Source: Acinetobacter rathckeae
GTDB taxonomy: Bacteria > Pseudomonadota > Gammaproteobacteria > Pseudomonadales > Moraxellaceae
NCBI RefSeq assembly: GCF_015627125.1
Contig: NZ_VTDO01000004.1
Coordinates: 62,001 to 126,000, forward strand
DNA length: 64,000 nt
Reading direction: 5' to 3'
Below are positions 10,255 to 44,408 of the stretch, piece by piece; position 1 is the first letter of the stretch, and each line of letters starts with the position of its first letter. The position numbers and the translations under genes were made by a program. The notes under the pieces were generated by a model. That model saw only the letters and a program-made list of their open reading frames with translations. It was not told the DNA's origin and ran no database searches.

Positions 10255-10270
10255 TGGCATGCTTATTGCT
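10255..10270 (+). promoter_or_regulatory. Sigma-54 (-24/-12) promoter for the amino-acid ABC operon
   Basis: TGGCATG, four bases, then TTGCT gives the exact GG-N10-GC spacing of RpoN promoters. It lies 48 bases before the binding-protein start codon. One base differs from the usual TGGCACG. Confidence 0.75.
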
Positions 10271-10318: not shown

Positions 10319-11107
10319 ATGCTTAAACCTTCTTCTTTGTTGTTAGCACTTTCCGTTCTCACATCTGTGGCAGTGGTTCCAACATTTGCCAATGCCGATG
10401 CACTTGCAGATATTAAAAAGTCTGGTGTGATTAAAGTTGCGATTCCACAAGACTATCCGCCGTTTGGTTCGGTGAGTAAAGACTTACAAGCACAAGGTTA
10501 CGACATTGATGTTGCAAAACTTATTGCCCAATCTTTAGGGGTGAAATTGGTGTTAGTCCCTGTGACCAGTGCAAACCGTATTCCATTTTTAACCACGAAA
10601 AAAGTAGACCTTGTGATTTCAAGTTTGGGTAAAACACCTGAGCGTGAGCAAGTGATTGACTTTGTGGGCCCATATGCACCGTTTTACTTAGGGGTTTTTG
10701 GACAAAAAAATGAATCTGTAAAATCTTTGGCTGAGCTTGCAGGTAAAACAGTTGGTGTGACTCGTGGTGCGATTGAAGATATTGAGCTGACTAAACTTGC
10801 ACCTGCATCAACCACCATTAAACGCTTTGAAGACAATAACTCAACCATTTCATCGTTTTATTCAGGTCAGGTGAACTTAATTGCAACAGGTAACGTGGTT
10901 GCGGGTACACTCAGCAAAAACTTTACTAAAAAACCACTAGATACCAAATTTATTATTAAAAACTCGCCGTGTTACATTGGTTTAAATAAAGGTGAACCTG
11001 AGTTACACAATAAAATTAATGCCATTATTAGTACTGCAAAAAGCAACGGTCAGCTGAACCGCATTTCTGTGCAATGGTTGAATGCACCACTACCAAAACA
11101 GTTTTAA
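10319..11107 (+). CDS. Polar amino-acid ABC transporter, periplasmic binding protein
   Basis: The 262-residue protein has a signal peptide ending FANA, then a family-3 solute-binding domain. It shows IKKSGVIKVAIPQDYPPFGSV near the start, GYDIDVAKLIAQSLGVKL, and DLVISSLGKTPEREQVIDFV, all typical of lysine/arginine/glutamine-type binders. Two permeases and an ATPase follow directly, so this is a complete importer. The cargo is not shown by the sequence. The nearby hydroxyproline-pathway enzymes make hydroxyproline or a related imino acid a candidate. A sigma-54 promoter upstream suggests induction under nitrogen limitation. Confidence 0.9.
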   Translation: MLKPSSLLLALSVLTSVAVVPTFANADALADIKKSGVIKVAIPQDYPPFGSVSKDLQAQGYDIDVAKLIAQSLGVKLVLVPVTSANRIPFLTTKKVDLVISSLGKTPEREQVIDFVGPYAPFYLGVFGQKNESVKSLAELAGKTVGVTRGAIEDIELTKLAPASTTIKRFEDNNSTISSFYSGQVNLIATGNVVAGTLSKNFTKKPLDTKFIIKNSPCYIGLNKGEPELHNKINAIISTAKSNGQLNRISVQWLNAPLPKQF

Positions 11108-19031: not shown

Positions 19032-19047
19032 TGGCACATAAATTGCT
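19032..19047 (+). promoter_or_regulatory. Sigma-54 (-24/-12) promoter for the urea transporter operon
   Basis: TGGCACA, four bases, TTGCT: near-consensus, with exact GG-N10-GC spacing. Transcription should begin near 19058, leaving a leader of about 30 bases before urtA, with TGGAG as ribosome binding site. Confidence 0.85.
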
Positions 19048-19086: not shown

Positions 19087-20388
19087 ATGCGCTTGACGCA
19101 AAATATTTTATCTAAGAGTTTATTGGCAGTAACAATTCTTGGGGGTATTGCATTAACAGGTTGTTCAAAACCTGCCGAAGCACCTGCAGAAAGTAAGCCT
19201 ACACCTGCGGCATCTGAGGCGAAAACAACTACACCAAGTGGCGATACCATTAAAGTGGGTATTTTGCACTCATTGTCAGGTACGATGGCCATTTCAGAGA
19301 CCTCTTTAAAAGATACCGCACTCATGACCATTAATGAAATTAATGCCAAAGGTGGTGTGTTAGGTAAAAAACTAGAACCAGTTGTGGTTGACCCTGCATC
19401 GAACTGGCCATTGTTTGCTGAAAAAACCCGTCAGCTGATTACTCAAGACAAAGTGGCTGTCATTTTTGGGTGTTGGACATCGGTATCTCGTAAGTCAGTA
19501 TTGCCTGTGGTTGAAGAGCTCAATGGCTTACTGTTTTACCCTGTGCAGTATGAGGGTCAAGAGCAATCTAAAAACATTTTCTATACTGGTGCTGCACCAA
19601 ACCAACAAGCCATTCCTGCGGTGGAATACCTCATGAGTGACGAGGGTGGTAAAGCTCAGCGCTTTGTTTTATTGGGTACAGACTATGTTTACCCACGTAC
19701 CACCAATAAGATTTTACGTGCATTCTTAAAGTCAAAAGGCGTGTCTGATGCAGACATCATGGAAGAATACACGCCGTTTGGTCACAGTAACTATCAAACC
19801 ATTGTGGGTAATATTAAGAAATTTGCTGCAGGTAAAAAGACGGCGGTGATTTCGACCATTAATGGTGACTCAAACGTACCATTCTACCGTGAGTTGGGCA
19901 ACCAAGGTATTAAAGCGTCAGATATTCCTGTCATGGCATTCTCTGTGGGTGAAGAAGAATTACGTGGTATAGACACCAAGCCATTGGTCGGTCATTTGGC
20001 ATCTTGGAACTACTTCATGTCGGTGAAAAACCCTGTCAATGCAGACTTTATTGGCAAAATGAAGCAATATGCAGTGCAATATAAATTGCCAAATGCAGAT
20101 AAATTGGTGACCAATGATCCAATGGAAGCAACCTATGTTGGTATTAACATGTGGAAGCAAGCTGTTGAAAAGGCAGGCACAACAGATGTAGATAAAGTGC
20201 GTGATGCAATGGCCGGTCAAACCTTTAATGCACCGTCTGGTTATACTTTGAAAATGGATGAGAAAAATCATCACCTTTATAAGCCAGTCATGATTGGTCA
20301 GATTCGTGCAGATGGTCAATTTGATGTGGTATATAAATCACCAACCACGATCGAAGCACAACCGTGGAGTACTTATATTCCTAAGTAA
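19087..20388 (+). CDS. urtA: Urea ABC transporter substrate-binding lipoprotein
   Basis: The 433-residue protein has a lipobox (ALTGC at residues 22-26), then a linker rich in Ala, Pro and Glu, and a type-1 periplasmic binding domain. KVGILHSLSGTMAISETSLKD, FGCWTSVSRKSVLPVVE, YPVQYEGQEQSKNIFYTG and LLGTDYVYPRTTN are typical of UrtA rather than of branched-chain amino-acid binders. It captures urea outside the inner membrane. It heads the operon urtABCDE, behind a sigma-54 promoter. A hairpin with a T run just after it should give more UrtA than the downstream proteins. No urease genes are in this window. Confidence 0.93.
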   Translation: MRLTQNILSKSLLAVTILGGIALTGCSKPAEAPAESKPTPAASEAKTTTPSGDTIKVGILHSLSGTMAISETSLKDTALMTINEINAKGGVLGKKLEPVVVDPASNWPLFAEKTRQLITQDKVAVIFGCWTSVSRKSVLPVVEELNGLLFYPVQYEGQEQSKNIFYTGAAPNQQAIPAVEYLMSDEGGKAQRFVLLGTDYVYPRTTNKILRAFLKSKGVSDADIMEEYTPFGHSNYQTIVGNIKKFAAGKKTAVISTINGDSNVPFYRELGNQGIKASDIPVMAFSVGEEELRGIDTKPLVGHLASWNYFMSVKNPVNADFIGKMKQYAVQYKLPNADKLVTNDPMEATYVGINMWKQAVEKAGTTDVDKVRDAMAGQTFNAPSGYTLKMDEKNHHLYKPVMIGQIRADGQFDVVYKSPTTIEAQPWSTYIPK

Positions 20389-24710: not shown

Positions 24711-24773
24711 CTGAAGATGCCTATCCCATGCATAGGTTTGTTGGTTTAGAATGGTTCTGGCACACCGTCCATT

Positions 24774-25808
24774 CTAGTCAACAAATATGGCATGGGAATG
24801 TCTATTATCACTTGAATATTTTTGTCTATAGGTATTGGGCGACTCTTTTGTCCATTGTTTAAATGCTCTAAAGAAAGAGTTAACTTCTTGAAAGCCCAGT
24901 AAGAATGAAATTTCGTTGATACTGATTGGGGACTGTATTAAATAATACTGAGCAAGTTCTTTTCGGGTATCGTCTAATATGGTTTTGAAGTTGGTTTGTT
25001 CATCTGCAAGTAACCTTTGTAGTGAGCGTTTACTCAGTGCCAATCTTTGTGCAATTTCATCAATATGGGCGATTCCTGCGGGTAGACTTTCCAATAAAAT
25101 GGCTTTAACTTTTTCATGTATTTTTACACGATGATCAAGCTCTGCGAGATTTTGTATTAAATGAGGCTCGAAAAAAGACCACATTTTTGAGTTAGATGTT
25201 AAAAAAGGTCGCTCAATGTCTGTGTTAAAGAAATGAATTGAAATAGATTGGCTTTTTTGGAGTTTTACACCTAAAAAGGCCTCATATTTTTCAGTATGAT
25301 CGGGTAGCTTTGGTACGTAGATGGCTTTAGGAATAATATGAACACGGGTACATATCCGTGCTAATTGTATAAAAAAGACCAGTTCGGTGAGGATGAGGCT
25401 TTGGGGTACTTCTATATCTATATTGCAAAACTGAAGCTCTAAACATAATCTATTTTCATCTATATCTAGTTGTAATGCCATTGGCCCAACCAGACGTTTG
25501 AAATGTGATAATCGTTGCAATGCTATATTTAGATTTGGGCTGCAAATACAAGCAAATATGGCAGGATCAAAGAGTTCAACGGTAATCATTTGCCCGATTT
25601 TTAGTGCCAAGTGGTCAACCTTTGCCAAGGTCTCTATGGCTCGCCAAAAGTCAAAATATTGAGAGGCTGTTACACTGAACTCTTTGCGACTAAATGCATC
25701 TAAAGGCAAGCCTGCTAGACGTAAAGCATCTTCAGGTTTGACTGAGAGGTCAATTAAAAATAATGCCCAGTTTGGTTGTAATATAAACTTTTCAGCATGC
25801 TTTATCAT
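24774..25808 (-). CDS. AraC-family regulator with Arabinose_bd-type N domain
   Basis: The 344-residue protein has the layout of OruR/ArgR-like AraC regulators. Residues 1-210 form an alpha-rich ligand domain starting with LPLDAFSRKEFSVTASQYFDFW. The C-terminal 100 residues form the double helix-turn-helix, with HIDEIAQRLALSKRSLQRLL and ISINEISFLLGFQEVNSFFRAF. The last helix is followed by KQWTKESPNTYRQ. It lies 46 bases downstream of the SDR gene on the same strand, so the two are probably co-transcribed and the regulator may control that gene. It converges with the urt operon and is unlikely to control it. Confidence 0.88.
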   Translation of the reverse strand: MIKHAEKFILQPNWALFLIDLSVKPEDALRLAGLPLDAFSRKEFSVTASQYFDFWRAIETLAKVDHLALKIGQMITVELFDPAIFACICSPNLNIALQRLSHFKRLVGPMALQLDIDENRLCLELQFCNIDIEVPQSLILTELVFFIQLARICTRVHIIPKAIYVPKLPDHTEKYEAFLGVKLQKSQSISIHFFNTDIERPFLTSNSKMWSFFEPHLIQNLAELDHRVKIHEKVKAILLESLPAGIAHIDEIAQRLALSKRSLQRLLADEQTNFKTILDDTRKELAQYYLIQSPISINEISFLLGFQEVNSFFRAFKQWTKESPNTYRQKYSSDNRHSHAIFVD

Positions 25809-25854
25809 AATGCTTGACCTGATAATTTGAATATTATGAGATTTTTCTAGCCCG

Positions 25855-26685
25855 TTATTTAACGATAGACATCACCATTTTGTCGAAAATACGATCGCCA
25901 AACCATTTCCTAACAAAAATCATCAGCTTTGCATATTTTCCACCGACATAGCGTGTTTTTGGTGTATTGGCCTGTATTGCTTGCATAAACATATCTACGA
26001 CGACTTGTACATCAGATAAATTTCCTTTTTCAACAGATTCATGTGTCGCATCTGCAACAGCATTTGCTATTTTACTGTAAGCACCTGACCCAGAACGTTC
26101 AAGCAGTGGTTTGACCATCACTGCTGCAAATTCGGTTGCAATCGCACCTGGTTCAATGACTACAACATCAATATTGAACGGGGCAAGCTCTAAGCGTAAG
26201 CAATCAGACCAACCCTCTACAGCATGTTTACTGGCATGGTACCAGCTACCCATTGGAGTATAAATTTTTCCTCCCATTGACGAAATGTTGATAATTCGTC
26301 CTTTGTTTTTATGACGCATGAAGGGAAGTACTTGTTGGGTTAAGTAAGCCATGCCAAATAAATTAACTTCAAATTGATAGCGAGCATCTGCAAGCGAGGT
26401 GTCTTCCATCGCACCATATAAGCCAAAACCTGCACAGTTCACCAATATATCTACGCCATGGCTGTGTTTTTCAATATGTTGTATGGTGTCGTCAATATCT
26501 TGTTGCTTGGTTATATCCATTTTTAACGTATGTGCACCAAGAGAAGCTAAATCTGCCATGGCATCTATACGTCGTGCGACAGCATATACGACCGCACCCT
26601 GATTAAGGAGTGCTTTTGTAAAAGCTTTTCCCATGCCTGACGAAGCACCTGTGATGAGTACAACTTGGCCTTTAACTTGATTCAT
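25855..26685 (-). CDS. Short-chain dehydrogenase/reductase
   Basis: The 276-residue protein starts at 26685 (MNQVKGQVVLITG), with AGAGGG nine bases upstream. It is a classical SDR: cofactor motif TGASSGMG, NCAGFG, the catalytic Ser in NISSMGGK, and YHASK with catalytic Tyr and Lys. The C terminus is basic and hydrophobic. Proteins of this type act on many alcohols, ketones and sterol-like compounds; the substrate cannot be predicted. The AraC gene just downstream probably belongs to the same transcript. Confidence 0.9.
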   Translation of the reverse strand: MNQVKGQVVLITGASSGMGKAFTKALLNQGAVVYAVARRIDAMADLASLGAHTLKMDITKQQDIDDTIQHIEKHSHGVDILVNCAGFGLYGAMEDTSLADARYQFEVNLFGMAYLTQQVLPFMRHKNKGRIINISSMGGKIYTPMGSWYHASKHAVEGWSDCLRLELAPFNIDVVVIEPGAIATEFAAVMVKPLLERSGSGAYSKIANAVADATHESVEKGNLSDVQVVVDMFMQAIQANTPKTRYVGGKYAKLMIFVRKWFGDRIFDKMVMSIVK

Positions 26686-26703
26686 TGTGATACCCTCTAT
26701 CAT

Positions 26704-27089
26704 GGTTATTTAATATTGCTTAAGTTTATTTTAGGATAAATCTATTGTTTTGGATGAATCGGATAATGACAAAGTATATTCAAATGACGACAAGTCATTA
26801 ATAGCAATGTAGATTATTCTAGACAGAACGATGAACAGTATTTCTTACATTTTACCGTTTTAGCATTTATAAAAAAGAGTGCCTTTAATTTCCTAAAATA
26901 TAAAGATAATCCCATAGCTTGTTCTTAAGCCATGGCAGATATGTTATGGCTCATGATTTACTCATAGGTACTATTTTGTGCATTATTTGCTCAGTTGGTG
27001 CTTTATTTTTATACATTGTATTTTTGTTTATAGAAATATTATTTATATAAGTTTTTGATAATTAAAGATTAAATTTTAAAATTGTGTCT
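26704..27089. other. Intergenic region between the SDR gene and the ureide cluster
   Basis: This 386-bp stretch is very AT-rich and I see no gene in it. It should hold the SDR promoter on the minus strand and enhancer sites for the sigma-54 promoter on the plus strand. I could not identify a convincing NtrC site by eye. Confidence 0.4.
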
Positions 27090-27105
27090 TGGCACATATG
27101 TTGCA
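27090..27105 (+). promoter_or_regulatory. Sigma-54 (-24/-12) promoter for the RpiR-ureide cluster
   Basis: TGGCACA, four bases, TTGCA, with exact GG-N10-GC spacing. Transcription would begin near 27117, which supports 27147 as the start of the first gene rather than a codon further upstream. Confidence 0.83.
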
Positions 27106-27146
27106 AATTAAAAGAATATGAAATAAATATTTCAAATAGGCTGTGT

Positions 27147-28001
27147 ATGACACAGACCAAAGTGCATCAAAGAATTGTGAATGTAGGGCAAGTTTTGACA
27201 GAGAGTGAATCAAAACTTACACAAGTCATTTTGGAAAATATCAATCAGCTCTCTTCGTATTCTGCGACAGAGTTAGCTCAGTTAGCACACGTTTCAAAAG
27301 CAACGACCGCCCGATTTTTTAAACGATTAGGGTATGCCTCATTTCATGAATTTCGTTTAGAAGCACGAGAGTTACAAGATACCGCATCGCCATTGTATGA
27401 ATTTATACAGCAAAAACATGTCGATGGTGGTTTTGTTGGTGTTGAACAACATGTGAAACAAGAGCTAAAAAATATTACCCAAACGTTTGAGCAGTTTGAT
27501 ACACAAGCGTTTCAGCAATCTATTGATATGTTAGGCCATGCTCACACCATCTATATCGTTGGTTTTAGAAATAGTCATCATCTTGCCCATTATATGTGGC
27601 TTTTACTTGCACAAATTTGCCCCAACGTTCGGTTGGTTTCAGGGCAAAGTGCACTTAACTTTATTGAAGAGTTGGTCGATTTGAACCAAAAAGATGTCCT
27701 CGTCATTATGGATTATCGTCGTAGAGTCCATTTGATGCGCCAAATCACAGATCATGCAGCCATGGTAAAAGCAAAGATATTACGTTTTACCGATCTATCT
27801 CTCCTCGAGCAACCAGCAAAAGCAGATGTCACTTTAAGAACATTCACTAAAAGTACCGCCATGTTTGACTCTTATAGTGCGGTTATTTCCCTGATTCATT
27901 CATTGTGTACACAACTGGCGATTGCACAAGAAATAAATACTCAAAGTCGTTTAGGCCATATCGAACAATTACATCAACATTATAAAGATCTTGATCTATA
28001 A
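27147..28001 (+). CDS. MurR/RpiR-family transcriptional regulator with SIS domain
   Basis: The 284-residue protein has an RpiR helix-turn-helix (SSYSATELAQLAHVSKATTARFFKRLG region, residues 35-65). A C-terminal SIS domain follows from about residue 125 (HTIYIVGFRNSHHLAHYMWLL). SIS domains usually bind phosphosugars, but RpiR members in ureide and purine loci sense other metabolites. The start at 27147 fits the sigma-54 promoter 40 bases upstream. The gene leads a run of same-strand genes for an amidohydrolase, an importer and amidases, which it presumably controls together with nitrogen status. Confidence 0.9.
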   Translation: MTQTKVHQRIVNVGQVLTESESKLTQVILENINQLSSYSATELAQLAHVSKATTARFFKRLGYASFHEFRLEARELQDTASPLYEFIQQKHVDGGFVGVEQHVKQELKNITQTFEQFDTQAFQQSIDMLGHAHTIYIVGFRNSHHLAHYMWLLLAQICPNVRLVSGQSALNFIEELVDLNQKDVLVIMDYRRRVHLMRQITDHAAMVKAKILRFTDLSLLEQPAKADVTLRTFTKSTAMFDSYSAVISLIHSLCTQLAIAQEINTQSRLGHIEQLHQHYKDLDL

Positions 28002-28010
28002 GGAAAAAAT

Positions 28011-29315
28011 ATGAATACGCATCTTAAAGTAACTGAACAGCAACACCTGCCATTAAATTTAACAATCAATAAAGAACGTCTTTTAAATCGAATACATACG
28101 CTTGCACAAGTGGGGGCACTTGAAGGCGGAGGTGTCTGCCGATTAGCACTCACTGATGAAGATAAGCAAGGTCGAGATTTAGTGATTCAGTGGATGAAAG
28201 AATTAGGCCTAGAGATACGTATTGATCAAATCGGTAATGTGGTGGGCTTACGTCAGGGGTTAGAAGATTTACCGCCAGTCATGACAGGTTCGCATATTGA
28301 TACAGTTGCGACAGGTGGAAAGTATGACGGCAACTTAGGTGTTTTGGCTGGATTAGAAGTCATAGCGACATTAAATGATCATAATATTCAAACTAAACAC
28401 CCTATTGCAGTGACTTTTTTTACCAATGAAGAAGGTGCTCGGTTTCCGCCAGACACCATGGGAAGCTTGGTTTTCCAAGGCGATATGAGTTTAGAAACTG
28501 CCTATAACATTGTCGGTATTGATGGCACTACAGTCAAAGAAAATCTACAACGCATTGGCTATATTGGTACAGCTCCCGTTGGCTCGCAAAACATACATGC
28601 ATTTATTGAGCTACATATTGAACAAGGGCCTGTTCTAGAACATGAACAGATCATGATTGGTGCTGTGACTGGGGTTCAAGGTATTCATTGGATTGAATTT
28701 ACAATACAAGGCACGTCAAATCATGCTGGTACAACACCAATGGCACTCAGACATGATGCTGGTATTGTAGCCATGCAAATTGCAACCTATGCAAGAGATT
28801 TGATTAAAAAAACTGGGCAAGGACAACTTGCAACCATTGGCCAAATGAAACTGATGCCTAATTTGGTCAATGTTATTCCACATACGGCAGTTTTCACTTT
28901 AGATATTCGAAATACTAACCAAACCATTTTAGATGAAACCTATCAAAAGATTCTCAAATTTGCTCAACAAGTTGCACAAGATGAAGGTGTGAAATTATTA
29001 CATCGAGACATTGCCAAGTCAGCTCCAATTGCTTTTGATTCTCGTATTGTTGATTGCATTGCAACCATTGCACAGCAACAAGGGGGCAGTGTGAAAAGAA
29101 TGCCGAGTGGGGCTGGGCATGATGCACAAGTGATTGCGGACATTTGCCCAACAGGCATGATTTTTGTGCCGAGCGTTAAAGGTTTATCTCACAATATTAA
29201 AGAATTTACACATGATCATGATGTGGAGCGTGGTGCAAATATTTTGTTACATGCCTTATATCAGCTCGCTAATGGTCATGTGATTAGCACAGTGAATACT
29301 GAAGTACATAAATAG
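28011..29315 (+). CDS. Zn-dependent N-carbamoyl amino acid / ureido amidohydrolase (M20 family)
   Basis: The 434-residue protein belongs to the hydantoinase/carbamoylase group of M20 hydrolases (allantoate amidohydrolase, beta-ureidopropionase, L-carbamoylase). Metal and substrate motifs are present: GSHIDTVATGGKYDGNLGVL, the EE pair in FFTNEEGARF, ELHIEQGPVLE, and GAGHDAQ with KGLSHN near the end. Such enzymes release ammonia and CO2 from N-carbamoyl groups. AAGGAAAAA precedes the ATG, nine bases after the regulator stop. The substrate class (ureide, carbamoyl amino acid) is likely; the exact one is not shown. The following importer probably brings it in. Confidence 0.88.
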   Translation: MNTHLKVTEQQHLPLNLTINKERLLNRIHTLAQVGALEGGGVCRLALTDEDKQGRDLVIQWMKELGLEIRIDQIGNVVGLRQGLEDLPPVMTGSHIDTVATGGKYDGNLGVLAGLEVIATLNDHNIQTKHPIAVTFFTNEEGARFPPDTMGSLVFQGDMSLETAYNIVGIDGTTVKENLQRIGYIGTAPVGSQNIHAFIELHIEQGPVLEHEQIMIGAVTGVQGIHWIEFTIQGTSNHAGTTPMALRHDAGIVAMQIATYARDLIKKTGQGQLATIGQMKLMPNLVNVIPHTAVFTLDIRNTNQTILDETYQKILKFAQQVAQDEGVKLLHRDIAKSAPIAFDSRIVDCIATIAQQQGGSVKRMPSGAGHDAQVIADICPTGMIFVPSVKGLSHNIKEFTHDHDVERGANILLHALYQLANGHVISTVNTEVHK

Positions 29316-29377
29316 TAGATGAATGAATTTTTGTAAATGCTGTCAGTATCAGCAGTGATGATTAAAAGGAGTGAGCA

Positions 29378-30181
29378 TTGAAGACACAGTTGGAAATTAA
29401 TCACCTTAATCATGCTTTTATGATGGAAGATGGTAAAGCCGTAAAAATCTTTCAAGATCTTAATTTTAAGGTAAAAAAAGCTGAAATTGTGGCCGTTGTT
29501 GGGCGAAGTGGTTCGGGGAAAAGTACATTATTTAATTTGATCTCGGGATTGTTGGCACCGACGGCAGGGGAAATTTCTTTAGGGAAAAAGCCAAATGGTG
29601 AGGAAGGCAGTATTGCCTATATGTTGCAAAAAGACCTGCTATTGCCGTGGCGAACCATTTTAGAAAATGCAGTCTTAGGCATTGAATTACAGTGTAATGT
29701 GGTTGCAGCAGACCGAGAACGTGCTCTTAGCATGTTGGCACGTTACGGTTTGACGGAGTTTGCCTATGCATACCCACATGCCTTGTCTGGTGGGATGAAG
29801 CAACGTGTGGCACTCACACGAACCTTACTCTCTGACCCAAGTGTTGTTTTATTAGATGAGCCATTTTCTGCATTAGATTATGAAACACGTTTAATGTTGG
29901 AAAATGATGTGATTCAACTGACACAAACTGAAGGAACAAGTGTCATTTTGGTCACTCACGACATTGATGAAGCCATTGCCATGAGTGATCGAGTCATTGT
30001 CTTGGGTGGGCGTCCTGCCAATATTACGCTTGAAGAACAAATTATTTTGTCAGTGGATGGGCCACGAAATGCAGTCACGGCACGGGGTGCACCTGAGTTT
30101 CATCAGTATCATGCTCGAATTTGGGATGCACTAAGAGCGAGTGATGTTGCCCACGCAGCCGTTGAAGGAGGTTCATCATGA
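29378..30181 (+). CDS. NitT/TauT-type ABC transporter ATP-binding protein
   Basis: This 267-residue ATPase of the SsuB/TauB class starts at TTG, with AAAAGGA before it. It shows Walker A GRSGSGKST, LSGGMKQRVALTRTLL, Walker B VVLLDEPFSALDYETR and switch VTHDIDEAIAMSDR. Transporters of this class import taurine, sulfonates, nitrate, pyrimidines or hydantoins. It overlaps the permease gene by four bases. Together with the permease and binding protein that follow it makes a complete importer, set beside an N-carbamoyl hydrolase. Confidence 0.92.
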   Translation: MKTQLEINHLNHAFMMEDGKAVKIFQDLNFKVKKAEIVAVVGRSGSGKSTLFNLISGLLAPTAGEISLGKKPNGEEGSIAYMLQKDLLLPWRTILENAVLGIELQCNVVAADRERALSMLARYGLTEFAYAYPHALSGGMKQRVALTRTLLSDPSVVLLDEPFSALDYETRLMLENDVIQLTQTEGTSVILVTHDIDEAIAMSDRVIVLGGRPANITLEEQIILSVDGPRNAVTARGAPEFHQYHARIWDALRASDVAHAAVEGGSS

Positions 30182-30939
30182 AATATATAAAAAGCACCTC
30201 CATGATTGTGACCGTTATTTTGCTTGTATTAATCCTACTATGGCAAATGGCTGCACAATTTCAGTGGATTAATGGTCAGTTATTAGGTTCACCATTGGGT
30301 ATTTATAAATCTGCTGTGTTTGGTTTTTCTGAGCAGGGCACACTCATTGAAGACACTTGGGTGACTTTAGTTGAAACTGTCATTGGCTTGGTCGTAGGAA
30401 GTAGTTTAGGGATTCTGATGGGGTTGATGTTGTGGTTTTACCCGAAGGTCTCTGATGTTGCAGAACAGTTTTCTATTTTATTGAACAGTGTACCTAAAAT
30501 CGCATTGGGCCCTTTAATTATTATTTGGTTCGGTTCAGGGATGAGTTCAAAAATTTGGTTAGCTGGGATATCAACATTTGCAGTGGCCATGATTTCTGCA
30601 TGTGCTGCGGCAAGAGAAGTTGATTCCGATTTATTAAATTTATTTAAATCTTATAAAGCAGATTCAATGAAAATTTTTAAGAAGTTGATTATACCCGCAT
30701 CAATTCCTTGGATTTTTTCAATTTTTAGAATCAATATTGGTTTTGCTTTAATTGGTGCAGTGGTTGGGGAGTTTATTGCATCGCAAAATGGCTTGGGGCA
30801 TTCGGTATTTGTTGCAGGTTCTTTGTTTGATTTAAATACGGTGTGGTTGGGCGTTATTGTATTAACTTTAATGGCTGCAATATTAACTTGGGTTGTACAA
30901 CGAATTGAAAAAAAGGTGATTTTATGGAAAGTAAAGTAG
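30178..30939 (+). CDS. NitT/TauT-type ABC transporter permease
   Basis: The 253-residue protein has about six membrane segments and the family docking loop near FKSYKADSMKIFKKLIIPAS. VPKIALGPLIIIWFGSGMSSKIWLA is the standard SsuC/TauC-type motif. GEFIASQNGLGHSVF follows near the end. It shares a four-base overlap with the ATPase gene upstream and a 16-base overlap with the binding-protein gene downstream, so the three are tightly coupled. Confidence 0.92.
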   Translation: MKYIKSTSMIVTVILLVLILLWQMAAQFQWINGQLLGSPLGIYKSAVFGFSEQGTLIEDTWVTLVETVIGLVVGSSLGILMGLMLWFYPKVSDVAEQFSILLNSVPKIALGPLIIIWFGSGMSSKIWLAGISTFAVAMISACAAAREVDSDLLNLFKSYKADSMKIFKKLIIPASIPWIFSIFRINIGFALIGAVVGEFIASQNGLGHSVFVAGSLFDLNTVWLGVIVLTLMAAILTWVVQRIEKKVILWKVK

Positions 30940-31907
30940 TAAAAAAACTTCGTAAACTGGCTGTATGTTCATTCATGTTAGGTTCTGTCATGCTGTCTAC
31001 TTCAAGCATTGCAGCAGAAAAAGCCACAGTGTATCAGGCATTTCAATCTATTTTATATTTGCCTTTATATGTGGGTATGAATGAAGGTATTTTTGATAAA
31101 GAAGGTTTAGAGGTTAAAAAAGTGACGGCCAGTGGGGGAGCTCAGGCGGTGGCTGCTGTTGTGGGAGGCAGTGCAGACTTTTCTTTAGGTGATCCGATGA
31201 CTGCTGTTTTAGCCAACTTAAAAGGTGGCTCGACCAAAGCAGTTGCAATGGTGGTTTCTGGTGTACCTGCATGGGTTATTGTACCCAAAGACTCGCCAAT
31301 TAAGTCTTTTGCAGATATTAGCAACCAAACCTTTGCGACAGCTATTCCACCCTCTACAACTACATATTTATTTCAAAATACCTTGAAAGAGCATAAGTTA
31401 ACCAATGTGAAGTTAAATACAGTTCAGGTTGGAACAGAGCTTGCTCCTGTACAAGCAGGTCGAGCAGATGGTGCAGTGGTGTATCAGCCACAATTAGAAC
31501 AGGCGGTTTCACAGGGCTACCGTATTGTGTATGACTATGCGAAGCAGTTTCACGGTGTATATGAGTTTTCTGCAATCGTGACGAAAACAGACACGATTAA
31601 AAACAAACCTGCAATGGTACAAAAGTTTGTGACTGGTTTAGCTAAAGCAGAAAAACTGATGCAATCGAATCCAAATCTTGCACGCAGTATTGCTCGTAAA
31701 GAGTTTCCAACCTTAGATCCGAAAGTGGTTGATGCGGCTGTTGACCGTATGCTTGCTCAAAATATTTATCCTGCAACGCCTGAGATTTCACAAGCAGCGT
31801 TTAATAATGCGATAAATCTACAAATCTCTATTGGTAACATTAAACCAGGTCAGGTGGCATATCACGATGCGGTAGATAACAGCTTTGCTCAAAAAGCAGT
31901 GAAGTAA
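30924..31907 (+). CDS. NitT/TauT-type ABC transporter substrate-binding protein
   Basis: The 327-residue protein has a signal peptide ending SSIAA and a NMT1/THI5-like (ThiY/SsuA) binding fold. Recognisable parts are YLPLYVGMNEGIFDKEGLEV, GGAQAVAAVVGGSADFSLGDP, and PVQAGRADGAVVYQPQ. Its relatives bind aromatic or heterocyclic nitrogen compounds, formylaminopyrimidine or sulfonates. Set between an N-carbamoyl hydrolase and amidases, it probably binds a ureide, hydantoin or amide. The start overlaps the permease end. Unusually the binding protein comes last in the ABC operon. Confidence 0.9.
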   Translation: MESKVVKKLRKLAVCSFMLGSVMLSTSSIAAEKATVYQAFQSILYLPLYVGMNEGIFDKEGLEVKKVTASGGAQAVAAVVGGSADFSLGDPMTAVLANLKGGSTKAVAMVVSGVPAWVIVPKDSPIKSFADISNQTFATAIPPSTTTYLFQNTLKEHKLTNVKLNTVQVGTELAPVQAGRADGAVVYQPQLEQAVSQGYRIVYDYAKQFHGVYEFSAIVTKTDTIKNKPAMVQKFVTGLAKAEKLMQSNPNLARSIARKEFPTLDPKVVDAAVDRMLAQNIYPATPEISQAAFNNAINLQISIGNIKPGQVAYHDAVDNSFAQKAVK

Positions 31908-32080
31908 TCATGATGTGTAGCTGGCGCTTTAAGGAATAGGGCGTCAGTGCTTTTACTTTAAATAATAAGAAATAATATACGAATGTATGGTTTGAGTTTT
32001 TCCCATTGAGTGACGGTGAGTGCATTGGCCTAATGTATATGATCTGTTGCGTGGACTATTTTTATCAACATGGATAGACA

Positions 32081-33321
32081 ATGACACATAAAATCAGTTT
32101 AGAAACAACACTTGAAATGATCACTCGTGATGAATCAACCATTAAAGCATTTAGTTACGTACCTAAAAAACAAGACTGGTGTGAGGTTTTAGAGAGTCCA
32201 TTGAATGGTGTGACGGTTGCAATAAAAGATTTAATCGACACTGCTGACTGGACGACAACCTATGGCTCAAAAGCATTTCAGAAAAATATTCCTAAAAAGA
32301 TGCATGGATTGTAGATTGTTTAAAAAAAAGCGGTGCCATTATTGTGGGAAAAACGGTGACCACCGAATTTGCATGGCGTGATGCTGGCCCGACCACGAAT
32401 CCATGGAATGTAAAGCATACACCAGGTGGGTCTTCAAGTGGTTCTGCAGCGGCTGTTGCGGCGGGTATGGTCGATATTGCTGTAGGAACGCACACACTGG
32501 GTTCAGTGATTCGGCCGGCATCTTATTGTGGCTGTGTTGGCTATAAACCAACATTTGATCTTATCTCGCGTGAAGGGGTGTATCCACTTTCTTCTACATT
32601 AGACCATGTTGGATTTTTAACCTCATCTTGCTATTGGGCTGCTGCGACTTATATGTTGGGTCAAGACATGAAAAGCAGTAAAGATGTATTGAAAGGCTTT
32701 GATCGAGGTGAAAAACCATTAAAAATAGGTATATATCGTTCATCACAGTGGCATTGGGTAGAAGATGAGGTTAAAGCGAATTTTGATGCAGTGGTTCGGC
32801 ATTTAACAAGGTTTGGTATTGCATTTACATGTGTTGACTTAGACTTGGATATTTTAGATATCACTCAGCAAGCCATTAAAACCACCTCTTATGAGGCAAA
32901 TCAAGAGATCTATCCAAAGGTTTGTGATCGGCTTGATGAGATTGGCCCATACAGTTTAAATCTAATGTTAGAGGGCCAAGAAATTACTCCAGAAGCATAC
33001 CAAGCACTGCTTAAAACAAATCAAAAGATGCGTGAACATCGTGATGATTTATTTCAAGACATTGATCTCATCATGTCTATTACCTCTCCGACAACGGCAC
33101 CAGAAGATTTATCTTACACAGGCGATGCGATGTTTTGTACACCCTGGACTTATTTGGGTCTCCCCACGGTCACCATACCATCGGGACTTTCACGGGATTT
33201 TTTACCCATTGGTTTGCAATTGATTGGTCAGGCTGGGTGTGATTTAAAGGTGTTGAAATTTGCACAGTGGATATCTAACCGCTTACCTGAGTTTAAGCGT
33301 GCAAGTGTTGCCTTTGAATAG
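32081..33321 (+). pseudogene. Amidase-signature enzyme with a frameshift
   Basis: The first 74 codons read as an amidase start with the catalytic Lys in VAIKDLIDTADW. Near 32295-32299 a run of five A in CCTAAAAAG needs a sixth. With it the frame would continue as KKDAWIVDCLKKSGAIIVGK into the second fragment. As given, a stop follows at 32314. The rest keeps the Ser-rich motif GGSSSGSAAAVAAGM and the nucleophile region GTHTLGSVIRPAS, differing from the usual GTDTGGS. It ends in LPIGLQLIGQAG. Unbroken it would be about 413 residues. It may be a true pseudogene or an assembly error in a homopolymer. An intact amidase follows 50 bases on. Confidence 0.85.
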
Positions 33322-33370
33322 AATTTAAATTGTTGTTCATAATTATTTTATGTATAGGCGGTGAGTAAAT

Positions 33371-34720
33371 ATGGTAAATATTAAAGATGCTGTTGCTTTG
33401 TCGCAATGTTTTCAAAAGACTCAGACCACGCCTTTAAAAGTTTTAGAGGAGAGTTTGAGTCAAATGAGCTCAACCTCATCTGTATTTATACAGTCTTGCC
33501 AAGATAGAGCGATTTTAGAAGCCAAGCTGGCAACCGCACGCTGGCAGGCAAATAGCCCATTGTCTTTATTTGATGGTATTCCTATTTCTTGGAAAGACCT
33601 TTTTGATTTACGTGGCTATAGAACCACCGCAGGGTCAATAGTATTGGCAAACAGTGAACTTAAAACAGCCGATGCCACCGTTGTTGCACACATTGCCCAA
33701 AAGGGTTTGGTTAGTGTTGGCAAAACCAATTTGTCTGAGTTTGCTTATTCGGGGTTTGGTTTAAACCCACATTTTGGTCATCCAAAAAATATATATGACG
33801 CGAAATGTATTTCAGGAGGCTCTTCTTCTGGTGCGGCACTGTCTGTTGCACATGGTTGTGTGCCACTTGCTATGGGTACAGATACTGGCGGGTCAGTACG
33901 TATTCCTGCGGCTTTAAATGGCTTGGTTGGTTATAGAAGTAGTCATCATCGTTATTCACATCAGGGTGTATTTGAGTTATCTAAAACCTTAGATACACTC
34001 GGGCCTATTACACACAGTGTAAGAGACTGTATTGTGTTAGATGAGTTGTTAACAGGCCATCATAGCCTTGATTTTCCTCAAGTCACTATTCCTTTAAATG
34101 AGCTTACTTTTGTTGTAGATCCTAGAATCACCGATATGATTGCTTTAGATGACTCGGTACAAAATAACTTTCAACGTAGTGTAGATCGGTTAAAAATGTT
34201 GGGTTGTCGAGTGGTTGAAAAGCCTATAGATGCGTTTACTCAAGCGATGGCATTGATTCAACAGGGGCTATGGTTAGGTTCAGCCGAAGCATTCACAAAA
34301 CATGAGTCATTACTTAATTCTCCACAGGCCAACGAGATTGATCAACGTATTCGCCAAAGAATGGAAATGGCTCGGCATTTTCCTGCATCGAAACAAATTA
34401 GGCTGTATTTTGCACAGCAACAACTGATGCAAGATTTGCCAAATCAGCTCAAAGGTTGTGTTTTACTCACACCAACTGTTGCCCATACAGCACCAGAAAT
34501 TGAGCCGTTAGAAAAGAGTACTGAACTGTTTTTTGAAACCAATATGAAAACTTTGGCTTTAACCATGCCCGGCAGTTTTTTAGATATGCCAGCTGTCACC
34601 TTACCAAATGGTTTTTGTGAGCGTGGTCTACCAACAGGGTTGCTGGTATCTACATATTCGGGAAATGATGAATATATTTTATCGGTTGCCCATGCCATTG
34701 AGGCATCCATTCGTGCATAA
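33371..34720 (+). CDS. Amidase-signature family amidase
   Basis: The 449-residue protein has the complete Ser-Ser-Lys apparatus: Lys in SWKDLFDLRG, cis-Ser in GGSSSGAALSVAHG and nucleophile Ser in GTDTGGSVRIPAALNGLVGY. The C-terminal part includes DMPAVTLPNGF and GLPTGLLVSTY. It resembles AtzF/allophanate-hydrolase-type and GatA-like amidases but has no extra domain. It would release ammonia from a small amide, which suits the preceding N-carbamoyl hydrolase and importer. It is distinct in sequence from the broken amidase upstream. It converges with the class II aldolase gene, 12 bases away. Confidence 0.9.
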   Translation: MVNIKDAVALSQCFQKTQTTPLKVLEESLSQMSSTSSVFIQSCQDRAILEAKLATARWQANSPLSLFDGIPISWKDLFDLRGYRTTAGSIVLANSELKTADATVVAHIAQKGLVSVGKTNLSEFAYSGFGLNPHFGHPKNIYDAKCISGGSSSGAALSVAHGCVPLAMGTDTGGSVRIPAALNGLVGYRSSHHRYSHQGVFELSKTLDTLGPITHSVRDCIVLDELLTGHHSLDFPQVTIPLNELTFVVDPRITDMIALDDSVQNNFQRSVDRLKMLGCRVVEKPIDAFTQAMALIQQGLWLGSAEAFTKHESLLNSPQANEIDQRIRQRMEMARHFPASKQIRLYFAQQQLMQDLPNQLKGCVLLTPTVAHTAPEIEPLEKSTELFFETNMKTLALTMPGSFLDMPAVTLPNGFCERGLPTGLLVSTYSGNDEYILSVAHAIEASIRA

Positions 34721-34732
34721 ACTTTCATTGCA

Positions 34733-35458
34733 TTATATGGTCGTTAACAGAGTATTCTCTTGTATTAGCATCATTTTCATTTCTTCAAAATGGGCTTCAC
34801 TAAAGTCTTCAATACTGTCCCAATCGAGGGCAGTTTTTTCGGCCACATCATCACTGAGTATTTTGAGTGGTTGTTGTGTGGCATAGGCAATCGATAAAAT
34901 TTGGCAAGCACGTTCTATGGTGTACATATCATCAAAAGCGACACCAATAGAGTGTGAGCCGATCAGTACACCATGATTTCCCATCAGTAGGCGTTTTTTA
35001 TCTTTTAATAAGTTGGCTAGCCGTTGCCCTTCCGCTTTTGAGTCTGCCATACCACCGTAGTGTTCGTCATAGGCAACACGGTTGAAATAACGGGCGGTAT
35101 TTTGGTCAATAGGTAAAATCTGTGGATTTTTTAGGCATGCAATGGCGGTGGTATAGATGGGGTGCAAATGAAGTACCACGCGAATATCTGGGCGTAATTG
35201 GTGAATTTGCCCATGTATAGCCAATGCAGTGGGGTCAATATGTGGATGATCAAGAAGGGTCTCATCATCTGCATTGACTAAAATTAAATCATTGGGCTGA
35301 ATGGTTGAAAAATGCTTCCATTTGGGATTAATCAGAAAGGTTTTACCATCTTCTGACACAGCCGCACTAAAGTGATTGGCAACCGCTTCATGCATGCCAA
35401 GTTTTGCAAATAACTGAAAGCAGGCTGCTAAATCAATGCGTATTTGTTTTTCGTCCAT
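34733..35458 (-). CDS. Class II aldolase/adducin family protein
   Basis: The 241-residue protein has the zinc-binding HLHP in VVLHLHPIYTTAIA and a later His in GNHGVLIGSHSI. The N-terminal block LAACFQLFAKLGMHEAVANHFSAAV is typical of this family. Such enzymes cleave sugar phosphates or decarboxylate/aldol-cleave small acids; the substrate is unknown. It is transcribed away from the amino-acid binding protein at 35637. It may work with the D-2-hydroxyacid dehydrogenase further on, but no operon links them. Confidence 0.87.
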   Translation of the reverse strand: MDEKQIRIDLAACFQLFAKLGMHEAVANHFSAAVSEDGKTFLINPKWKHFSTIQPNDLILVNADDETLLDHPHIDPTALAIHGQIHQLRPDIRVVLHLHPIYTTAIACLKNPQILPIDQNTARYFNRVAYDEHYGGMADSKAEGQRLANLLKDKKRLLMGNHGVLIGSHSIGVAFDDMYTIERACQILSIAYATQQPLKILSDDVAEKTALDWDSIEDFSEAHFEEMKMMLIQENTLLTTI

Positions 35459-41165: not shown

Positions 41166-41579
41166 ATGAAACACACACGGATTCGTCCATTTAATACTAA
41201 AACAACTTATCCAGAACAAAAGTTAAATAATGACCTCTGCCAAGCCGTGGTCGCCCGTGGAAGTATGGTCTTTTTAAGAGGACAAATTGGGCAAAACCTA
41301 GATACTTCGGAGAGTGTCTGCATTGGTGATGTTGAAGGGCAGGCCGAGCAGGCCATGTACAACATAGACATGTTGCTCAAAGAGGCAGGCGGGGAATTAG
41401 AAGATATTTGTAAAATCACCATTTATATTATCGACCCACGCTACCGTGAAGCGGTGTATGGTGTGGTTGGGAAATGGTTAAAAGGGGTCTTTCCTGTGTC
41501 TACAGGGATTGTCGTATCTGCATTGGCACGTCCTGAATGGTTGGTTGAAATTGATGCTACAGCGGTAATCCCTGACTAA
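41166..41579 (+). CDS. Rid-family (YjgF/UK114) protein without the catalytic Arg
   Basis: The 137-residue protein is a single Rid domain: VVARGSMVFLRGQIGQNLDT, EQAMYNIDMLLKEAGGELEDICKITIYI and LVEIDATAVIP. RidA enzymes that deaminate enamines need an Arg in the motif FPARS. Here the same place reads FPVSTGIVV, with Ser at that position. It should therefore belong to the Rid subfamilies (Rid4 to Rid7 type) whose function is unknown or different. It leads a cluster with a DUF1028 protein, a LysR regulator and an M20 deacylase, a neighbourhood that suggests a role in catabolism of an N-acyl amino compound. Confidence 0.88.
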   Translation: MKHTRIRPFNTKTTYPEQKLNNDLCQAVVARGSMVFLRGQIGQNLDTSESVCIGDVEGQAEQAMYNIDMLLKEAGGELEDICKITIYIIDPRYREAVYGVVGKWLKGVFPVSTGIVVSALARPEWLVEIDATAVIPD

Positions 41580-41594
41580 TTTGGATATAAAAAT

Positions 41595-42269
41595 ATGACA
41601 TTTTCAATTGTTGCACGTTGCCAAAAAACAGGGCAGATGGGTGCTGCCGTGAGCTCTTCATCCCCTGCAGTGGCTGCCAGATGTATTCGTGCCAAAGCAG
41701 GTGTTGGGGTGGCTGTCAGTCAAAACATTACCGACCCAAATTTATCAGAAGTTTTACTTAATTTAGTGCGTTTTGATATTGAGCCAGAAAGTGCTATACA
41801 TGAGTTAGTGGCAAACACTGAATTTATTGATTATCGGCAACTTATGGTACTCAATACACAAGGGCAAGTTGCCACCTACAGTGGTGAAAAAACTTTAGGC
41901 ATTTATGCCACACATACAGGTCATCAAGTCGCTTGTGCAGGCAATATGCTCAAGCATGCAAATATTCCTGAAGTGATGTGCCAAGCTTTTGAACACAGTG
42001 AGGGCTCTTTAGCTGAGCGACTGCTATTGGCCATGCAAGCAGGAGTAGATGCAGGTGGTGAAGCAGGGCCTGTGCATTCGGCAGGCGTATTGGTGGTCGA
42101 TAAAGTGGATTGGCCAATTATAGATTTACGGGTAGATTGGTCTGAGCATGACCCCATTGCTGCGCTGTATCAGATTTGGAAGCTGTATGAGCCACAAGTG
42201 GAAGACTATGTGATACGTGCTTTAGATCCGTCATCTGCACAAAGTTTTGGAGTCGCTGGCAATTTATAA
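41595..42269 (+). CDS. DUF1028 family protein (predicted Ntn-type hydrolase)
   Basis: The 224-residue protein begins MTFSIVARCQKTGQMGAAVSS, the usual DUF1028 start. It continues with GVGVAVSQNITDPNL and VACAGNMLKHANIPEVM. The middle has AGVDAGGEAGPVHSAGVLVV. The fold is thought to be of the Ntn-hydrolase type; the biochemical role is not established. It follows the Rid gene by 15 bases, and its ribosome binding region (TTTGGATATAAA) is repeated before the next gene. The pairing with Rid and M20 proteins suggests that it handles an amide or peptide-like intermediate. Confidence 0.88.
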   Translation: MTFSIVARCQKTGQMGAAVSSSSPAVAARCIRAKAGVGVAVSQNITDPNLSEVLLNLVRFDIEPESAIHELVANTEFIDYRQLMVLNTQGQVATYSGEKTLGIYATHTGHQVACAGNMLKHANIPEVMCQAFEHSEGSLAERLLLAMQAGVDAGGEAGPVHSAGVLVVDKVDWPIIDLRVDWSEHDPIAALYQIWKLYEPQVEDYVIRALDPSSAQSFGVAGNL

Positions 42270-42297
42270 AAATTTTAATCTTTGGATATAAACACAC

Positions 42298-43266
42298 GTG
42301 CTAAACCGTATTTCACTGCGTCAAATTGAGTATTTTGTGGCGACCGCAGAAAGTGGCAGTATTATTATTGCTTCTGAGCGAATCCATGTGTCATCGCCGT
42401 CTATTTCAGCGGCCATTGCCCATATTGAATCTGAATTACAAGTACAACTCTTTATACGCCAACATGCCAAAGGGCTGATCTTAACCAATGTGGGCGAGCA
42501 CCTGATGAAAGAGTGCCAAGAGATTTTAGCCCGTGCAGGTAATTTATATGCTTTGGCTGCCAACTACTCAGGTTCAATTCGAGGGCCACTCAAGCTTGGC
42601 TGTTTTTCTGCCTTTGCACCGATGCTGTATGCCGAAATTATTCACGGGTTTGCGCATTTATATAAAAGCGTTCAGTTAGATGTCTGTGAGGGAGACCAAG
42701 AGGTTTTACTCAGTGGTTTACTGCGTAATGTGTTAGATGTGGTGCTTACCTATGATTTAAATATAGACCATGATCTGATCCACTTTGAGCCACTGGCAAG
42801 TTTGCCACCGTATGCTTTATTTAGTAAAGAGCATCCTTTGGCAGAGGCATCTGCGGTGACAATGGAAGAGTTAGCTGAGCATCCAATGGTATTGTTAGAT
42901 ATGCCATACAGTAGTGACTATTTTATTTCTTTATTTAAGCAAAAAAAACTCAGTCCAAATGTTGTCAAAACTTCTAAAAGCTCGGAAGTGATTCGTGCCA
43001 TGGTCGCCAATAATATTGGTTACAGTATTTTAAATGTAAGGCCAAAAATCAATTACTCTTTAGATGGTAAGCAACTGGTACGTGTACGTATTTCTGGTGA
43101 GCAGCGTCCCATGCAAATTGGTCTTGCTACGGCAAAAAATGCGGTACTCAATACGGTTGCTCAGGCATTTATTAGCCGATGTCGTGCCTTTATTTCTGAC
43201 CAATATATTTCAGGAATGGATGCCCCACATTTTTATGATCCACACATTCGTGTAAAGGACAGCTAA
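42298..43266 (+). CDS. LysR-family regulator inside the Rid-DUF1028-M20 cluster
   Basis: The 322-residue protein starts at GTG. The helix-turn-helix is FVATAESGSIIIASERIHVSSPSISAAI, followed by the usual IESELQVQLFIRQHAKGL. The effector domain includes GPLKLGCFSAFAPMLYAEII and LFSKEHPLAEASAVTMEELAEHPMVLLD. It is transcribed in line with the cluster, 28 bases after the DUF1028 gene, and its TAA stop overlaps the ATG of the M20 gene. This is unusual for LysR regulators, which are mostly divergent from their targets. It presumably controls its own operon. Confidence 0.9.
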   Translation: MLNRISLRQIEYFVATAESGSIIIASERIHVSSPSISAAIAHIESELQVQLFIRQHAKGLILTNVGEHLMKECQEILARAGNLYALAANYSGSIRGPLKLGCFSAFAPMLYAEIIHGFAHLYKSVQLDVCEGDQEVLLSGLLRNVLDVVLTYDLNIDHDLIHFEPLASLPPYALFSKEHPLAEASAVTMEELAEHPMVLLDMPYSSDYFISLFKQKKLSPNVVKTSKSSEVIRAMVANNIGYSILNVRPKINYSLDGKQLVRVRISGEQRPMQIGLATAKNAVLNTVAQAFISRCRAFISDQYISGMDAPHFYDPHIRVKDS

Positions 43267-44408
43267 TGTCAAATACAGTCTCTCAAGCACTATTAAAACA
43301 ACTGATCTCTTTTGATACCACATCATATAAAAGTAATTTAGATTTAATTTATTTTGTGCAACAGCAGTTTGAACAACATGGTATTCGTGTTCGGGTAAAG
43401 TTGAATGACCAAGGTAATAAAGCTTGTTTATTTGCCAGTGTAGGGCCACAAGATGTCGCAGGTGTTTTATTGTCTGGACATAGTGATGTGGTGCCTGTAG
43501 ACGGCCAAGACTGGCATAGCCCACCATTTGTTGCTTTGGAAAAAGACAATAAAATTTATGGGCGTGGTACCGCCGACATGAAAGGCTTTATTGCCTGTGC
43601 CATGGCAGTGATGTTGTCTGTAGAACAAGCACAGTTAAAACGACCACTGCATTTGTGTATTTCTTATGATGAAGAAATTGGTTGTATTGGCGTGCGAGAT
43701 ATTTTGCCTCAGCTGGCTGAATATTTGGTCACGCCGTTATTGTGTATTGTTGGTGAACCGACTCTAATGCAAATGGCTTTGGGGCATAAAGGCAAATCAG
43801 TTTTTAAAGCGCTGTGTCATGGGCAAGAAGGACACTCTGCATTAGCACCCCATTTCAGCAGTGCCATACATGCCGCCAATGCACTGATGAATGCCATTAT
43901 AAACATGCAACAAGAGATCACACAGCAACATCCACAAGATGCAGACTATGATATTCCGTATACCACGTTGCATATTGGGAAAATTCATGGGGGACAAGCA
44001 CTTAATATTGTGCCAAATGAATGTATTGTCGACTATGAAATTCGCCATATTGCACAAGACAGTAGTCATCACATTCAACAAAAAATAGCTGCTTCTTTAG
44101 AACACAGTACATTTAAAAAATTTATTCATATTGAAGAAGTAAACAATTATTCAGGTCTTGCCACCGCAAAAAATACACCGATTATTCATAGCGTAAAAAA
44201 ACTCTTACCTGAAAGTACCACAATAGGAAAAATTTCTTTTGGTACAGAAGGTGGCTTGTTTTTTGATGCACTTGATTGTCCTGTATTGGTGTGTGGGCCT
44301 GCGTCCATTGAAGTCGCACATAAACCCAATGAATATATTGAGCTGAGTCAGCTACAACAGTGTGATGTTTTTTTAGAGAAGTTGGTGCAGTTTTTGAAAT
44401 CTGCTTAA
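43266..44408 (+). CDS. ArgE-type M20 amidohydrolase (acetylornithine deacetylase-like)
   Basis: The 380-residue protein has the M20 dinuclear zinc motifs: SGHSDVVPVDGQDW, the Asp in GRGTADMKGF, the EE pair in SYDEEIGCIG, the Glu in VGEPTLMQMALGHKG, and the final His in EVAHKPNEYIEL. It is close to ArgE, which removes acetyl groups from N-acetylornithine. The genomic context is a catabolic cluster, not arginine biosynthesis, so an N-acyl amino acid is the likely substrate. AAAGGACAG upstream and the TAATG overlap show coupling to the LysR gene. Confidence 0.88.
   Translation: MSNTVSQALLKQLISFDTTSYKSNLDLIYFVQQQFEQHGIRVRVKLNDQGNKACLFASVGPQDVAGVLLSGHSDVVPVDGQDWHSPPFVALEKDNKIYGRGTADMKGFIACAMAVMLSVEQAQLKRPLHLCISYDEEIGCIGVRDILPQLAEYLVTPLLCIVGEPTLMQMALGHKGKSVFKALCHGQEGHSALAPHFSSAIHAANALMNAIINMQQEITQQHPQDADYDIPYTTLHIGKIHGGQALNIVPNECIVDYEIRHIAQDSSHHIQQKIAASLEHSTFKKFIHIEEVNNYSGLATAKNTPIIHSVKKLLPESTTIGKISFGTEGGLFFDALDCPVLVCGPASIEVAHKPNEYIELSQLQQCDVFLEKLVQFLKSA

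Follow-up and report, generated by a model that had tools for sequence, protein, structure and literature searches.

We examined a gene cluster at positions 27,090 to 34,720 of a 64,000-nucleotide stretch of DNA from Acinetobacter rathckeae (contig NZ_VTDO01000004.1, positions 62,001 to 126,000 of the forward strand), here called the window, which is part of a 2.75-Mb genome. The genes of the cluster, all on the + strand, encode an RpiR-family regulator, an M20-family hydrolase, an ATP-binding cassette (ABC) importer of three components and two amidase-signature proteins. Known families are put together in the cluster as a mosaic, and their control has been rewired. We consider it highly probable that the cluster scavenges nitrogen from a ureide or an amide; its exact substrate is unproven. 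The features, in window coordinates, are:

27090..27105, + strand: sigma-54 promoter box TGGCACATATGTTGCA, an exact consensus match
27119..27134: palindrome TGAAAT-AAAT-ATTTCA, a putative operator for RpiR that follows the sigma-54 box
27147..28001, + strand: RpiR-family regulator (HTH_6 and SIS), above the Pfam cut-off
28011..29315, + strand: M20 ureido/N-carbamoyl amidohydrolase of a dpaL-linked clade (TIGR01879, homologues, tree)
29378..30181, + strand: ABC importer ATPase, NitT/TauT type (PF00005)
30178..30939, + strand: ABC importer permease (PF00528)
30924..31907, + strand: NMT1-type periplasmic binding protein (PF09084, 89.7 bits)
32081..33321, + strand: malonamidase-like amidase A with a frameshift: N part at 32081-32311, stop codon TAG at 32312-32314, C part in a second frame
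33371..34720, + strand: amidase B, amidase-signature family, intact (PF01425, 259 bits)
31920..31948, + strand: terminator-like hairpin before the amidases (consensus scan only)
24711..34754: stretch missing from the close relative G134, which has about 1.3 kb with a different open reading frame (ORF) in its place

An earlier note on this DNA had described a sigma-54-led, RpiR-associated set of importer and hydrolase for ureide or amide nitrogen. That description is supported, and profile models recover the regulator, the carbamoylase-family hydrolase and the three-gene importer as named there. The sigma-54 box lies 42 bp upstream of the RpiR ATG. The start at 27147 was chosen because the mechanical start at 27084 would cross the promoter. 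The pattern TGGCACN5TTGCA occurs at three sites in the genome (2.75 Mb) against one for the reversed control pattern, and exact matches to TGGCAYN5TTGCW number three in the window against a shuffle mean of 0.55, with 3 of 100 shuffles reaching three. All three exact boxes in the window (10255, 19032, and 27090) are followed, 40–49 bp on, by the leading gene of an importer or of the RpiR cluster. A GG-N10-GC box at promoter distance and an rpoN gene, the features expected of a sigma-54 promoter, were both found; the exact box, its rarity in the genome and the presence of rpoN thus bear out the proposed sigma-54 promoter ahead of RpiR. Under the spacing rule that we take to apply, transcription is predicted to start at about 27116. 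The exact box at 10255-10270 lies 49 bp before an amino-acid-type importer gene at 10319, and a gap of 40 bp separates the one at 19032-19047 from a downstream UrtA-like urea importer gene at 19087 (both genes named by eye); both boxes are kept in G134 with altered spacers. A urease alpha subunit is also encoded in the genome.

The palindrome at 27119-27134, overlooked in the earlier note, would span about +4 to +19 if, as we presume, the usual sigma-54 spacing holds. The strict palindrome occurs at three sites in the genome, the reversed control at none, and it was found in 0.0005 of shuffled intergenic regions, a post hoc figure for a pattern picked after it had been seen. Of 13 related loci, 10 carry the pattern TGAMA-N6-TKTCA ahead of their RpiR homologue (all six from Achromobacter, two of three from Cupriavidus, L065, and L066), often in two or three copies 30 bp apart; it is not present upstream of RpiR in L091, L024, and L092. 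In Achromobacter the repeats flank an apparent TTGACA...TATATT (by eye). The window RpiR, with HTH_6 at 53.4 bits and SIS at 38.2 bits, is 42–44% identical to the RpiR proteins of the Achromobacter and two Cupriavidus loci that carry dpaL, the gene for diaminopropionate ammonia-lyase. A hexose-type, HexR identity was considered and rejected (51.8 against 296 bits). Judged from the sequence, RpiR probably acts at the palindrome, its predicted operator.

The hydrolase scores 418.4 bits (cut-off 204 bits) against the hydantoinase/carbamoylase model TIGR01879, and the models that it satisfies are broad family models. It falls below the cut-offs for the allantoate deiminases AllC (TIGR03176; 290.1 against 597.75 bits) and NF006768 (335 against 532 bits), as well as for the N-carbamyl-L-glutamate amidohydrolase ErtE (NF058540; 369.1 against 520 bits). 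The match to characterised allantoate systems that the earlier note had asked about therefore did not appear at sequence level. The nearest homologues are from Achromobacter (64–69% identity) and Cupriavidus plasmids (about 66%). A tblastn analysis of the fetched flanking stretches placed dpaL near the M20 gene in 22 of 24 loci with at least 47% M20 identity and in none of 11 with 43% or less, the close set having come from searches with the window protein, near-copies included, rather than from random sampling. The two exceptions, L064 and L069, the latter truncated at the end of a contig, both have a nitrilase-type gene. In a tree of 34 M20 rows, from which L003 and L005 were omitted as near-copies, the window protein and six dpaL-linked rows form a seven-row clade (support 100/100), and a wider 23-row clade (95/94) contains all 20 dpaL-linked rows used. 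The window protein retains 102 of the 106 columns that are invariant in linked rows, against 70–87 in unlinked rows. Only nine bases separate the RpiR and M20 genes in the window, in the place that dpaL occupies in the relatives; there is no DpaL in the cluster, and none in the genome passes the cut-off (best match 51 against 274 bits).

Among the closest known systems is the RpiR-DpaL-M20-nitrilase-MFS-YgeY-like cluster of Achromobacter and Cupriavidus (MFS, major facilitator superfamily), with which the window shares RpiR (42–44%), M20 (64–69%) and palindromic repeats ahead of RpiR. The window lacks its DpaL, nitrilase, MFS, and YgeY-like genes and has instead an importer and amidases, while a sigma-54 box replaces the apparent sigma-70 promoter (by eye). 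Most simply read, RpiR stayed in place together with its operator, and the promoter became sigma-54-dependent. Clusters of dpaL with M20 recur in Proteobacteria (L001-L006, L024-L026, L063, L065-L068, L070, L071, and L090-L095); a nitrilase-type gene is common in them, and a hydantoinase or a YgeY-type hydrolase is found in some. The hydantoinase is in L024 and L092, and relatives also have a D-carbamoylase-type nitrilase or the YgeY-type hydrolase (369.6 bits, cut-off 321 bits). These recurrent clusters are a candidate route for albizziin or diureidopropionate. An M20 homologue (48%) is present in rhizobia from Calliandra and Leucaena (L095, hit H10), and in L095 dpaL adjoins it. Mimosoid legumes produce albizziin, which would supply a natural source. 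A different RpiR-M20-amidase group lies at 7117-13937 of L089, with an M20 only 34% identical to that of the window, together with an aminotransferase and ORFs of polysaccharide-deacetylase and racemase type (by eye).

The chemistry to which these clusters point is that of the reductive urate pathway. According to passages of two papers (PMC12507026, PMC12990295), ureidomethyl-hydantoin is opened to 2,3-diureidopropionate, loss of one ureido group gives albizziin, YgeY strips the remaining ureido group, and the pyridoxal-phosphate lyase YgeX converts 2,3-diaminopropionate to pyruvate and ammonia; in these passages the sequence in which the ureido groups leave is under dispute. The lower half of the pathway (HyuA, YgeW/UacY, YgeY, and YgeX, which is DpaL) removes ureido groups from C3 ureido acids, and relatives of the window M20 sit likewise with DpaL, some with a hydantoinase or a YgeY-type hydrolase. 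In contrast, the window has no DpaL and the cluster no HyuA or YgeY, its M20 is of the hydantoinase/carbamoylase family rather than YgeY, and its control is by sigma-54 and RpiR. A set of DpaL, M20 carbamoylase, and nitrilase-type carbamoylase is not described in the passages of PMC12507026 and PMC12990295 considered here; by our own inference it fits the same pathway end. By analogy, the dpaL-linked M20 clade would probably cleave the ureido group from C3 ureido acids such as albizziin, which is 2-amino-3-ureidopropionate, or 2,3-diureidopropionate.

With dpaL flanked by the nearest relatives of both RpiR and M20, a C3 ureido acid is the likeliest substrate of the operon that we can name, although we put it forward only tentatively. 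This lead changes the earlier view that the cluster matches no familiar pathway, since its hydrolase and regulator come from a lineage in which they flank diaminopropionate ammonia-lyase. The description of the set as self-contained is likewise doubtful, as no lyase for the carbon product turned up in the genome. Since dpaL was not found there, nitrogen alone is probably recovered, a use that would fit sigma-54 control. In a literature search whose coverage left subscription journals largely outside, no paper joining RpiR with diaminopropionate ammonia-lyase was found, and for the lyase together with albizziin only the two urate papers (PMC12507026, PMC12990295) were found.

The importer has a different ancestry. 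It is 57–72% identical to importers on Paraburkholderia plasmids (L020, L021; ATPase 63–67%, permease 69–72%, binding protein 57–58%) and 34–49% identical to others. The binding protein satisfies only the broad Pfam NMT1 model, and its matches to solved structures are weak (E value about 1e-9) and name no ligand; the sulfonate model SsuA (TIGR01728; 86.6 against 163.5 bits) and the taurine model TauA (TIGR01729; 33.3 against 304.25 bits) were rejected. Twelve importer loci were compared, five from plasmids and seven from a draw of 398 Pseudomonadota-level genomes, among which eight matched, the window genome included; a search of 299 genomes of the family of G557 gave one match. Beside the importer lies an amidase-signature gene in 10 of the 12 loci and acetamidase/formamidase homologues in the other two. 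When up to one mismatch is allowed, a sigma-54 box stands within 300 bp upstream of the importer in 7 of 10 loci (L052 and L053 were left out), five of them at 50–65 bp and two exact, against 0–2.75% of random stretches taken from these loci. The Paraburkholderia clusters L020 and L021, laid out as importer-amidase-GntR-amidase, share the window's arrangement of ATPase, permease and binding protein genes. They differ in having no M20 or RpiR, and no sigma-54 box was found in them; their amidases are 39–41% identical to amidase A (over the aligned part), and the second is about 27% identical to amidase B. In Paraburkholderia aromaticivorans the importer module is followed by genes annotated as gamma-glutamyltransferase and oxalate/formate antiporter.

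The earlier note had counted two amidase-signature genes, and both can be recognised, but only amidase B is intact and two working amidases are not present. The reading frame of amidase A opens at ATG 32081, shifts near 32290-32300 and, after its first 77 codons, ends in a TAG at 32312; the rest of the gene can be read in a second frame as far as 33321. Each of three module amidases gives an alignment with it in two frames, which adjoin near 32293-32300. Programmed frameshifting was considered as well; the ten module relatives read as single frames (by alignment only). From the catalytic triad and motif that we assume for this family, the N fragment would hold the Lys and the C fragment the Ser residues. 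The best solved-structure match of amidase A is malonamidase E2 (156 bits), although the single frame with the Lys and both Ser residues that would typify such an enzyme was not found in it. On sequence grounds it is probably dead. Its identity to the ten module amidases, 32–41%, is below the expectation set by the importer, in line with decay or replacement. Amidase B falls just under the PRK06102 model NF004766 (553.5 bits, cut-off 559 bits), and its relatives, matching at 44–45%, stand in other neighbourhoods and give no lead. Amidase-signature and anion uptake genes also stand together in the ANSA amidase cluster of acesulfame degraders, which, according to passages of PMC10413263, its authors think serves uptake and hydrolysis of an external amide; it differs in its LysR control and its transporters.

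The distribution of these genes suggests that the cluster was acquired. The binding protein is absent from 148 other genomes of the genus (best other match 28%, E value 5.9e-11), and M20 homologues, at 37–41%, were found in five of 58 other genus genomes, plus one short match. In G134 both flanks align to the window at 85–89% nucleotide identity, and the site of the missing stretch (L102 8829-10154) is occupied by a 330-aa ORF with tandem repeats resembling Sel1 repeats. The missing 10 kb also includes AraC-type regulator-like and short-chain dehydrogenase-like genes (named by eye). Gain in the window lineage appears a simpler reading than loss in G134. The assembly is listed with 8.5% contamination; a foreign contig is unlikely, given the even G+C, the flanks that align to G134 and the Acinetobacter-like region at 54-64 kb, for which all 11 matching plasmid-collection records are from Acinetobacter (the best four from A. 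baumannii, about 75% over 66% of the query). Elsewhere in the window, RidA, DUF1028, LysR, and ArgE-like genes (41166-44408; by eye) follow one another as they do in at least three further genomes of the genus (L104-L106).

In the proposed mechanism, nitrogen limitation would lead sigma-54 RNA polymerase to start transcription, and RpiR, bound to the palindrome just past the start site, would block it until the substrate or its product is present. The importer would take up a small ureido or amide compound, from which the M20 enzyme would release the ureido (carbamoyl) group as CO2 and NH3; in a cell without dpaL the nitrogen would be kept and the carbon skeleton left unused. Amidase B may draw amide nitrogen from the imported compound or from one related to it. 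As a whole, the proposal of an acquired nitrogen-scavenging operon under these two controls strikes us as evenly balanced.

Several observations weigh against it. The ten loci with the palindrome come from six Achromobacter, two Cupriavidus, and two others, and so amount to fewer independent cases. No sigma-54 box was found within about 100 bp in the RpiR-dpaL relatives, the only one being at 210 bp in L091, and the closest importers, L020 and L021, lack one too (2 and 3 mismatches). There is no NtrC-like site with at most one mismatch upstream of the cluster, where a single half-site was found at 26996. A sigma-70-like site (10 of 12) is present at 27055-27082, such sites being no commoner than in shuffles. 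In view of this site and of the hairpin at 31920-31948, inside the 173-bp gap between the binding protein and the amidases, a single promoter, as the earlier note had it, may or may not drive the whole cluster. None of the 12 importer loci has M20 or RpiR, so the pairing of the importer with them is known from the window genome alone. Finally, the window M20 departs at 4 of the 106 clade-invariant and 2 of the 7 clade-specific columns, M149T and F337S among them, and has a long branch (0.63) and an unusual composition.

These last departures suggest that the M20 substrate may have shifted. The corresponding alternative is that the enzyme changed its substrate after leaving the dpaL context, so that the operon uses another ureide, e.g., an N-carbamoyl amino acid, by way of the binding protein. 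The lack of dpaL in the genome, the long branch with its composition bias, the replacements M149T and F337S at positions invariant in linked rows and the different lineage of the importer are in its favour, whereas the enzyme has kept 102 of its 106 clade-invariant residues and has stayed together with RpiR and the palindrome. We regard it as possible but rather unlikely.

We give a somewhat lower likelihood still to a core formed by the importer and an amidase for a small amide, perhaps a dicarboxylic monoamide, with M20 as a passenger. The amidase-signature genes or acetamidase/formamidase homologues beside all the importers, the malonamidase E2 match of amidase A and the annotations that follow the P. 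aromaticivorans module would agree with it. However, amidase A is frameshifted and only 32–41% identical to the module amidases, compared with 57–72% for the importer and Paraburkholderia, and the genes adjoining the promoter are RpiR and M20, not an amidase. A decaying acquired cassette of no present use is improbable, for, although amidase A is frameshifted, dpaL has been lost relative to the RpiR-dpaL-M20 order of the relatives, and the binding protein has no orthologue in the 148 other genus genomes, the six other genes are open, the sigma-54 box and palindrome are exact and the G+C matches the rest of the window.

A fuller history that goes beyond the preferred reading is a speculation that we consider unlikely to be right: an operon for carbon and nitrogen from a C3 ureido acid, albizziin or 2,3-diureidopropionate, would have been turned to nitrogen-only salvage by losing its lyase, gaining a high-affinity importer and exchanging its promoter for a sigma-54 one. 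The RpiR operator would have stayed just past the start site, making the operon responsive to nitrogen hunger as well as to substrate. Such a history would also mean that, in aerobic proteobacteria, M20 and nitrilase-type carbamoylases carry out the lower half of the reductive urate pathway. The component families are known; the combination, the control and the substrate lead are new within the searches made, and the substrate is the weak point. If that guess is wrong, the cluster is one more mosaic nitrogen operon built from familiar parts. The lead gives a testable substrate class to an M20 clade annotated only as 'Zn-dependent hydrolase' or 'allantoate amidohydrolase' and ties it to the newly described reductive urate chemistry. 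The cluster is also a plausible case of promoter replacement, in which the same regulator and operator have been put under nitrogen control.

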